Positions 1,451-48,494 of a stretch of DNA of 64,000 nucleotides are shown here, one piece after another. Below the pieces are notes generated by a model, which was not told the DNA's origin, did not search any database, and was given only the letters and a program-made list of their open reading frames with translations. The translations under genes and the position numbers were made by a program. Each line of letters starts with the position of its first letter. Position 1 is the stretch's first letter. The stretch covers positions 8,944,001-9,008,000 of the forward strand of contig NC_069131.1 of assembly GCF_026914265.1 (NCBI RefSeq), in the 5' to 3' direction. Source of the stretch: Mya arenaria. Taxonomy: Eukaryota; Mollusca; Bivalvia; Myida; Myidae.

Positions 1451-4338
1451 ATGCTTCGTTTTCTTGTATTGGGACTATTCGTGTCGGTTTTTTTATCGTT
1501 TCCTTCTGTGAGGGCCGACGGTATGTTTGAGTCTTTCTTCTTTTTTATCAAAAATGAAAAATATTTCTTGATTGTATCATAATTTTAACACCAGCGACGA
1601 TGCATCAAGATCGTTATCAAATGACTTATTAATAATAATAATACGATTTCAAAGAGAAATGCTATATGTGCATGATGTCTTTTATGTTTGTTGTATATTT
1701 GTGACTTATTTATTTTTATGTTAATAATGATATACTCTTTTAATAATAATAATAATAATAATAATAATAATAATAATAATAATAATAATAATAATAAAAT
1801 AGAAATAAAATAGTAATAATAATAATAATAATAATAATGTTATATAATAATAATAATAATAATAATAATAATAATAATAATAATAATAATAATAATAATA
1901 ATAATAACTACTACTACTACTACTACTACTACTACTACTACTACTACTACTACTACTACTAATAATAATAATAATAATAATAACAATAATAATAATATGT
2001 GTTTAATTGTATATGGCTAAATGATGTTTTGAAAAAACACACGCTTAATCTGCATTGACATTTCTACATATTTCATAACTGTCAATTAATAATTCAATGG
2101 AAACTGCAGGGACAAGCCCAGTAGTGAAAAATTCAAAAGTAGCATCTGTTTAGAGGCACACGGCAATTGCTCAAACGAGAAAGCATTGGACTAACGAAAC
2201 AAATGAATAACTACAACAAATACAAACACAACAACAGACCAATCATTCATTTATTCAACTGAATTGTCAATCAAAAGTAAACCGAATTGCTTTTTCATAG
2301 TTGAAAAAGTTTGTAAAGTCCATGTATCAAAATATTTCAAAAGTATGCATACATGAGTTTAATGGAAAAGTAAAAGATGTATAAACAGACGTTTCCTTGT
2401 TGCTAAACCATGTTAAAAACCGCATTTGGAACTCTCGTGCACCTATTCCAAACAGCTACAAGCCCGCGTTCGAATCTATCCTATGTTAATTCTACAGTAC
2501 CAGTGGATGTTCGAAGTTGTATGATAAAAGTTTGACTAGTTTCAAAAACAATTATTCGTTATCTAGGAACTGTACTGTCGACAATATCTCCTTGTTACAA
2601 AGCCGCTCGTAGTGCTCTTGGTGAAATGGTTCCGGTGACCTTGGCATGGTGTCTGTGCTATCTTATTGGCTCCGTTTTTATCCCATTATGATAATTCAAT
2701 GAAACTCCATTATGTTAATCCAATGAAACCAAAGAAAACAACATTCGACAAACAAATATTTTATATTAAGTTATCGGAAATAGAAGTTAAACATAGCAAG
2801 CTATTCCCAACGTTGAACGGTGACACGATATGAAATAAGATTATTCTCTCTCGCCGAAATTACAAAGTTGACATTTGTCGGAAAAGGATCAAAGATGTAA
2901 ATGATTCTATTGCAGATGAACTGACCGAACAAGAGATCCTAGAAGCGGTTGAAAGAGCGCTAGATGGTCAACTCAGAGATACAGAGGTAAGAAAGGAACA
3001 CGGTTGGCTAATAGTTTGCATCCAGTTTCGATCCGTTTCGATATCGCAAACAATGCGTCAAAAATATTTTCAATTATAATGGTAGGTTAATCGCAACCTG
3101 TTGAAAACATTTTTTGTTGTATTGCAACTGGTTCTGTTTCTATATCACTTTTCAGGTCCGGGCTGCTGGTGATAGCGATAGCGAAGAATTCGACTGTGAA
3201 GGAAATCCAGAATGCGAGAACTGTTTTGCCAATTGCGAGAGTGAAGAGGGTTGTGCAATGCTCTGTGCGCTGCTCTTCGGTCAGGAGGATGAAGAAAAAC
3301 GTGGAAGGTCAATAATTATACGTCATTATATTAACTTATGGTTCATAACAACGACGGTTTGAGTCCCATTTCAACAACATACTTAGTGTCTGTTTCAAGC
3401 GACCTGCTTGTAAAAAAGTATTATTTAATTCATAAAAGTTTGTTTTTTCATATTAGAGGTTCTATGTTATAATGTATAAGGGCTATTATGACAGGACGCT
3501 TTTCTGAAATCCCGTATCACGTCCAGTTCGCGGGGTAAATGCATGTTTATACACCGAACAAGACGTGATACAGGTCGTCAGAAAAGAACTTATGATTCTT
3601 TTATTATATGCCTCATTTGAACATTTCCATGTTTAAACACTCCGTATCAAATTTAAGCTATGGAACTGCAATGAGATTTTTCACGACATTTCCTCGGATA
3701 ATAGTTTCGGAAATGACGTCACAAATCAATCGCATTAATGATTTGGAGCATTGTCTTGAATATAAACACTATTCAGCAACTGAATACATTCAAAATCATT
3801 TCTTCCTTAGAAAATGTATTACTGAATGGTAAGTTAATGTTAGTAAAATCTTGAAAAATCATGAATTTGTAAAATGTAGCATTTAACAAATACTACTACG
3901 CAGATACGGCTTTGAAAAAACACACGATAGTAGCGTGATGCGTATTCTTAAATACGGCACGCTGTAATTTTTTACTGATGGATATGGGGGTGCGACAGGC
4001 GCATAAGTTCTAAAATTGTACGCTTTCGTTGGTACGGATGTTTTAGATATGCCTATAAATAATATACTTTTGTTTTGACAACTTAATTCGTGTTCTTACT
4101 TGTTATAACGTATAAAACGTATTTCTAGAGCTATCATCATGACATTTTCCGTTTTGGTTCCTCAAATCTGTTTTAAAAGAATACCCAATAAATTTATCCG
4201 TGTAGTAGGAAATGATATTCAGACTCAACAGTAATATTTTAACAACCTTTGTCTTCTCTATCTCTTTCTCTATCACTTTTCAGGGAAAGGAAGCGAGGAT
4301 GGTGGTGGCGCCCACGTCAATCTTTTTATCCCAGATAA
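1451..4338 (+). CDS. Copy A: secreted acidic six-Cys precursor ending in a Trp/Arg-rich cationic peptide (putative antimicrobial peptide precursor)
   Basis: Four exons: 1451-1520, 2916-2986, 3156-3307 and 4284-4338. All introns are GT-AG, and together they give 115 residues. Residues 1-22 are a signal peptide (MLRFLVLGLFVSVFL, then SVRA). Next comes an acidic helix with EQEILEAVERAL. A very acidic segment follows with six cysteines spaced C-x5-C-x2-C-x3-C-x5-C-x3-C, then EDEEKR. Exon 4 adds a second KR site and the C-terminal peptide GWWWRPRQSFYPR. By analogy with known precursors, a furin-like protease would cut at KR and free the cationic peptide from its acidic pro-part. The exon 3 donor at 3308 (AG/GTCAAT) is chosen because it keeps the reading frame used in copy B. 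A donor at 3301 would also stay open but gives a non-cationic tail. The antimicrobial role is inferred from composition; a neuropeptide or other secreted factor is possible. Confidence 0.75.
1741..1995. repeat. (AAT)n and (ACT)n microsatellite in intron 1 of copy A
   Basis: Long AAT runs are interrupted near 1801-1835 and then pass into an ACT run at about 1909-1960 before returning to AAT. Copy B carries a shorter, degenerate AT-rich trinucleotide tract at the same intron position (around 22020-22125). Confidence 0.9.
3499..3592. repeat. Imperfect hairpin in intron 3 of copy A
   Basis: The word cgtatcacgtccagttcg is answered by an inverted partner cgaacaagacgtgatac about 35 nt on, giving an imperfect stem flanked by CTTTTCTGA and TCAGAAAAG. 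The same structure is present in the right arm at 19614-19700, so it predates the inverted duplication. Confidence 0.6.
4284..4338 (+). other. Exon 4 of copy A: candidate mature peptide GWWWRPRQSFYPR
   Basis: A good acceptor (pyrimidine tract TCTCTTTCTCTATCACTTTT then CAG) is followed by 55 nt of coding sequence ending in TAA. The end product after the second KR has 13 residues: three consecutive Trp, three Arg and two Pro, with no acidic residue. Length and composition resemble the Trp-rich cathelicidin peptides indolicidin and tritrpticin, but that is a resemblance of type, not homology. After the stop codon the sequence realigns with the 3' untranslated region of copy B, so the peptide segment itself is the part that changed. 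Confidence 0.7.

Positions 4339-48494: not shown

Follow-up and report, generated by a model that had tools for sequence, protein, structure and literature searches.

Vertebrate cathelicidins are encoded by four exons, with a conserved, acidic, disulfide-bearing pro-part in exons 1–3 and differing basic peptides in exon 4; the pro-part has four Cys, and the peptides include Trp-rich and Pro/Arg-rich types. A Trp/Arg or Pro/Arg composition, accompanied by an acidic escort, is a typical mark of defence peptides. Among bivalves, CRP-I of Mytilus is described as a multigene family with a conserved signal and propeptide, dibasic cleavage and a hypervariable mature peptide in the fourth, last exon (PMC10138031). 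Myticalins and modiocalins are described as taxonomically restricted bivalve peptides, linear, basic and hypervariable, of Pro/Arg or Trp/Arg type, with an acidic propeptide and dibasic cleavage (PMC5577615). Outside molluscs, the sea urchin centrocins combine a conserved prepro-part with variable mature chains starting with Gly or Trp (PMC4805251), and BRICHOS-type polychaete peptides such as nicomicins have an acidic pro-region with a folded domain followed by a C-terminal basic peptide (PMC6265681).

We analysed a window of 64,000 nt from the bivalve Mya arenaria (NC_069131.1, positions 8,944,001–9,008,000), for which the original prediction had described three secreted precursors, copies A, B and C, with a constant acidic six-Cys prepro-region and a swapped-out cationic C-terminal peptide. 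Copy A lies on the plus strand, with the signal peptide in exon 1 (1451–1520), ELTEQEILEAVERAL in exon 2 (2916–2986), an acidic exon 3 with six Cys that ends in KRG in phase 2 (3156–3307) and exon 4 (4284–4338) reading RERKRGWWWRPRQSFYPR and then stop. Copy B stands tail-to-tail (convergent) to copy A, on the minus strand, with exons 1–4 at 22182–22251, 21062–21132, 20742–20893 and 18582–18693, the last reading SVMTRGWIRRVRNPFRNIRWPRIPRIPHIPIRLGRIK and then stop. Copy C is also on the minus strand, with exon 1 at 48425–48494, exon 2 at 47508–47578 and exon 3, including a stop codon, at 46460–46609; TTCAG/GTAGAT at its end is a possible phase-2 donor. Direct reading confirmed that exon 1 is 70 nt and exon 2 is 71 nt in all three copies, that the intron phases are the same and that the core E(I/V)LEAVERAL is common to them. 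The six Cys are spaced C-x5-C-x2-C-x3-C-x5-C-x3-C in A and B and C-x4-C-x2-C-x3-C-x6-C-x3-C in C. By string comparison, the copy A protein (115 aa) is identical over its full length, exon 4 included, to the deposited P0002 (LOC128206845), and the copy B protein (134 aa) likewise to P0001 (MAR_030498). The four-exon reading of A and B therefore agrees with annotation by others. A long tandem array of ~25-bp units (AGTTGAGTGTTCTACCGTCCTACAC, period by eye) occupies 8650–14870 between the convergent copies, and another, with units of roughly 45 bp (GACTTATAGAAGCTTTAAAAACATTGATGTAAGTTATTCTAAGCAT, period by eye), lies just past copy B at 23800–26790.

The three copies have a core promoter in common. 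TATAA is followed by the 11-mer TTGGCTCATTC, which begins 23 nt past the start of TATAA, in copy A (1401–1434, plus strand; TATAA at 1401, 11-mer at 1424–1434), copy B (22268–22301, minus strand) and copy C (48518–48551, minus strand). Across the window the 11-mer has three occurrences, upstream of A, B and C and nowhere else, and no extra site was found at one mismatch. ATG lies 22–29 nt past the start of TCATTC in all three. Copy C is related to copy A above chance within the 64-kb window (exon 2 of A vs C, E 4e-4; C vs A, E 3e-4), and we regard the two as kin on the basis of these values together with the equal lengths of exons 1 and 2, the equal phases and the common promoter motif. The motif points to C as a true member, and its presence argues that C is a genuine, transcribable gene of the family.

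With the spliced copy B protein as query, five models were retrieved, all from Mya arenaria and on a 74,570,910-base contig. A family profile built from P0001, P0002, P0003, P0004 and copy C retrieved ten models, again all from Mya arenaria, spread over five large contigs (74.6, 64.4, 71.6, 71.4 and 58.0 Mb). Among 3294 candidates, none from another species reached E ≤10, by a tool that needs shared five-residue words and can miss distant relatives that share none. For copy C, the database search gave five candidates, none at E ≤10. Because their N-termini are near-identical, each of the pairs P0003/P0005 and P0007/P0008 seems to be one gene modelled twice; ten models minus two doublets leave eight distinct annotated sequences, to which copy C is added. 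The family thus numbers nine distinct sequences or more, rather than the three members originally counted. Five of the ten database models have the core E(I/V)LEAVERAL in its exact form; in P0004, P0007, P0008, P0009 and P0010 it is altered. In the deposited P0004 (MAR_030499), exon 4 is apparently in the wrong frame, giving an acidic Gly run, as it apparently is in P0005 (MAR_031020), where an Ala run replaces a Ser run; both are probably mis-modelled, with exon 4 read in another frame. A tree of eight pro-parts had strong support on none of its five inner branches; the split between A/B and the remaining five models had 85/99, and copy C formed a very long branch.

Seven full models (P0001, P0002, P0003, P0006, P0007, P0009 and P0010) were compared, leaving aside P0004, P0005 and P0008 as mis-framed or partial; exon junctions in models other than A and B were set by alignment, not DNA. 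The pro-part between signal and exon 4 carries a net charge of -20 to -10 and exon 4 one of +4 to +11. Six Cys are present in the pro-part of all seven, and six of the seven have no Cys in exon 4 (P0006 has one). Together with the 70- and 71-nt exons of A, B and C and the E(I/V)LEAVERAL-type core, the six Cys and an Arg-aromatic start of exon 4, found in 7/7, mark membership in the family. Mean pairwise identity falls from 0.76 in the signal to 0.62 in the pro-part and 0.37 in exon 4, and exon 4 identity is below pro-part identity in 21/21 pairs. Random frames of 15–60 aa in the window reach a charge of at least +6 in 5915 of 73351 cases (~8%), so the charge of a single tail is weak evidence. 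AlphaFold gave two poor models for the pro-part fold of copy B (mean pLDDT 52.6 and 51.3).

The pair A/B allowed the change in exon 4 to be followed against its surroundings. Exons 1–3 differ at dN 0.052 and dS 0.316 (dN/dS 0.17 over 97 codons), and the signal and acidic six-Cys part are therefore under constraint. Flanks and introns are 85–92% identical in six stretches measured without gaps; with gaps counted, identity over all aligned segments runs from 71% up. Codon-aligned, exon 4 is identical at 21/36 positions, below both the 3' flank (289/336, p 1.5e-4) and the introns (p 1.5e-5). Freely aligned, it matches at 41/55 positions, with 57 gap columns, and its excess of divergence over the same 3' flank is weak (p 0.04). 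The last 83 nt of intron 3 are identical at 64/70, and the first ~120 nt of the 3' UTR at 85/103, likewise gap-rich (41 gap columns). Exon 4 dN/dS over 12 codons does not exceed 1 (dN 0.53, dS 0.92), and in the contrast of N and S changes against exons 1–3 positive selection on exon 4 was not detected between A and B (Fisher p ~0.1). The dN/dS comparison proposed with the original prediction thus bore out constraint on exons 1–3 and gave no excess in exon 4: exon 4 evolves fast, and selection for change is unsupported by the N:S contrast. Exchange of exon 4 between genes was considered and is rejected, since A aligns with B where intron 3 ends, where exon 4 begins (GCGAGGATGG) and along the 3' flank. 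The tails described as swapped out are homologous and have diverged in place. By eye, the Pro/Arg stretch of copy B contains a 9-nt repeat, CCACGAATT CCACGAATT CCACACATT, reading PRI PRI PHI, and exon 4 of P0003 carries a Ser run; from their sequence we take both to be expansion in place, not exon exchange.

Where the tail would be released was reconsidered across the family. The predicted cleavage at Lys-Arg has its site in A and B, where exon 3 ends in Lys-Arg-Gly, but this is kept in those two of the seven full models only; four have Lys-Gln-Gly there, and P0010 has neither, with Lys-Lys close by. At its start, on the other hand, exon 4 has in 7/7 an Arg followed immediately by Gly-Trp, Trp or Phe, in the context R-x-R or K/R-R in six models and Thr-Arg in B. 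It is therefore more likely that the mature N-terminus is set by the Arg in exon 4 rather than by the exon 3 Lys-Arg, and the mature peptides likely start with an aromatic residue or Gly-Trp. EeCentrocins likewise are described as beginning at Gly-51 or Trp-51 (PMC4805251). The residues after the Arg are weakly basic in three tails (P0010, +1; P0007, +2; A, +3).

Set against the described systems, the clam family resembles cathelicidins in placing a basic predicted mature peptide in exon 4 of four (in A and B; not found for C). It differs in having six Cys rather than four, a short pro-part and no cathelin match, and in belonging to a different phylum; the likeness is taken as convergent, and the family would follow a cathelicidin-like plan without being a member. 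As in CRP-I, a conserved prepro-part precedes a peptide in the last (fourth) exon in A and B. As given in the account of CRP-I drawn on here, however, its Cys lie in the mature knottin and its exon 1 is untranslated (PMC10138031), whereas the clam Cys lie in the pro-part and exon 1 encodes the signal. The CRP-I array C-C-CC-C-C is absent from clam exon 4, which in A and B has no Cys and is linear. In myticalins, the basic peptide is reported to precede a C-terminal acidic part and to lie in exon 2 of three (PMC5577615). The clam order of signal, acidic part and basic part is the reverse, with six Cys in the acidic part; for likeness in signal and propeptide, the profile gave Mya arenaria models only, with a tool that reaches sequences sharing short words, so that the comparison is by description. 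Centrocins are described as two-chain peptides with an interchain piece (PMC4805251), and none was among the clam profile matches. Unlike the BRICHOS-type peptides, the family has no BRICHOS match in Pfam. Judged by these sequence features, it fails the defining features of cathelicidins, myticalins and CRP-I yet has the same plan.

A, B, C and five paralogs had no Pfam-A match at cut-off, and the cathelin pro-domain (Cathelicidins) was absent also among their sub-threshold Pfam-A matches. NCBIfam gave one sub-threshold match only, in one of seven models, and Rfam none. Against PDB sequences, copy B had no match and a seven-row profile one, at E 1. LOC128206845, LOC128206882 and MAR_030498 were absent from the open-licence literature searched, a text search there for the core motif gave an unrelated match only, and among the best open-licence matches, judged by title and start of abstract, there was no paper on a Mya six-Cys precursor family. 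The family is apparently undescribed, as had been suggested, within the best matches of that literature.

We consider it probable that A and B belong to a multigene family of the clam whose members are secreted precursors of host-defence peptides, with a putative antimicrobial role. That role is a prediction, and the best inference from a conserved signal and acidic part, a variable basic tail near basic sites, multigene organization and occurrence in one species at the reach of the search. Transcription, processing, storage and antimicrobial action would proceed as follows. Exon 1 would send the precursor into the secretory path, and the acidic six-Cys part (exons 2–3) would fold with disulfides and neutralise the basic tail during storage. 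A furin/PC-type or trypsin-like protease may then cut after a basic residue, either the Arg at the start of exon 4 or, in A and B, the Lys-Arg at the end of exon 3, freeing a short linear peptide that starts with Gly-Trp, Trp or Phe. Trp/Arg peptides would bind bacterial membranes, and the Pro/Arg type of B would enter cells. Over time, substitutions, indels and short repeats would diversify exon 4 where it stands, with exons 1–3 kept.

The tail of copy C bears on a first alternative. As read, C ends in RTYTARRNKFR and has a net charge of -12 after the signal; its donor candidate TTCAG/GTAGAT shares the phase of the A and B donors. A cationic exon 4 had been predicted here too, and three scans were run over 7.5 kb downstream, to 39001. 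Of seven basic candidates from the first, those at 39597 (RSSLQAPGRWPFRF..., net +6) and 39573 (RWPFRF..., net +5) were strongest, both using AAG acceptors, as copy B exon 3 does. A scored scan for an acceptor with phase 2 gave top rank to the true exon 4 in both A and B, a partly circular control as the score was built from A/B features, and its best row for C was net +4, with no motif and unlike exon 4 of A or B. Under loose rules, 24 candidates occurred on both strands of the window, true exons included, which corresponds to 1.4 expected per 7459 nt; copy C had three (40130, 39597 and 39573, two of them overlapping) and its candidates are thus at chance level. No basic exon 4 above that level was found for C within the 7.5 kb, though one of the loose candidates may be genuine; C keeps the promoter motif, signal and six-Cys part and seems to have no basic tail. 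Such a copy is what would be seen if the acidic six-Cys part were the working product, a small disulfide protein that binds, e.g., a metal or receptor, and the basic tail a sorting or neutralising appendix, and the constrained part of the precursor is indeed the pro-part (dN/dS 0.17). The pro-part, however, differs between paralogs too (mean pairwise identity 0.62), and the basic tail is kept in 7/7 full models, which leaves this alternative improbable. Two more repeat features occur in the window: a tandem repeat at 37530–39160 (GAGGTCGACACCATAGAAACATCC), which opens long spurious frames such as one of 556 aa on the minus strand, with no Pfam match, and, by eye, GGCCGCTAGGCCGCTAG clustered in either orientation at 42890–44270.

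Fast evolution of the basic tail, in a multigene family seen in one species, might also be expected of reproductive or gamete-recognition proteins, in this case secreted basic peptides that evolve fast in a broadcast spawner. We hold this to be very unlikely given the Trp/Arg and Pro/Arg make-up and the acidic escort, which the myticalin account presents as typical of defence peptides (PMC5577615). Exon 4 could instead be an artefact of gene prediction, or sequence in decay, with the true transcripts retaining intron 3 or ending otherwise. The donor after exon 3 is weak in A and B (AAG/GTCAAT), reading through intron 3 gives GRSIIIRHYI in both before unlike ends, and the partial model P0008 ends GRSII, which together make a retained intron 3 a real alternative; P0004 and P0005, moreover, seem to take exon 4 in another frame. 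Nevertheless, the deposited A and B models include exon 4 and its Arg-aromatic start recurs in seven models on five contigs, so that only a slender chance attaches to this account. Hormone peptides are normally the conserved part of their precursor. A precursor of a peptide hormone or neuropeptide, processed at Lys-Arg, would explain a signal peptide, basic sites and a short peptide, but is scarcely credible when variation is concentrated in the tail and only 2/7 models retain Lys-Arg-Gly.

If the antimicrobial-precursor reading is true, the clam would have a lineage-specific family of its own, linear peptides of Trp/Arg and Pro/Arg type whose pro-part matches no family in the libraries searched. 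The A/B pair, of an age at which introns still align, would show a basic peptide changing type while the pro-part stays. More tentatively, and doubtful as a whole, a bivalve lineage may have invented the cathelicidin plan independently: exons 1–3 would encode a constant acidic disulfide escort, in the last exon the basic cargo would be renewed on the spot through repeats, indels and shifts of frame, and copy C would be an escort with no cargo that may act alone or in trans. At their short length, the exon 4 peptides lend themselves to synthesis and testing. Mya arenaria is a fished clam. It is also a species in which transmissible cancer is known (PMC8905726).

Two other frames were noted in the window. 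A 196-aa frame at 431–1021 on the minus strand has a RING-like Cys pattern, with Pfam RING matches below cut-off. The other, of 311 aa at 57020–57955 on the minus strand, has no Pfam match and, by eye, resembles what we take to be the end of a non-LTR reverse transcriptase.
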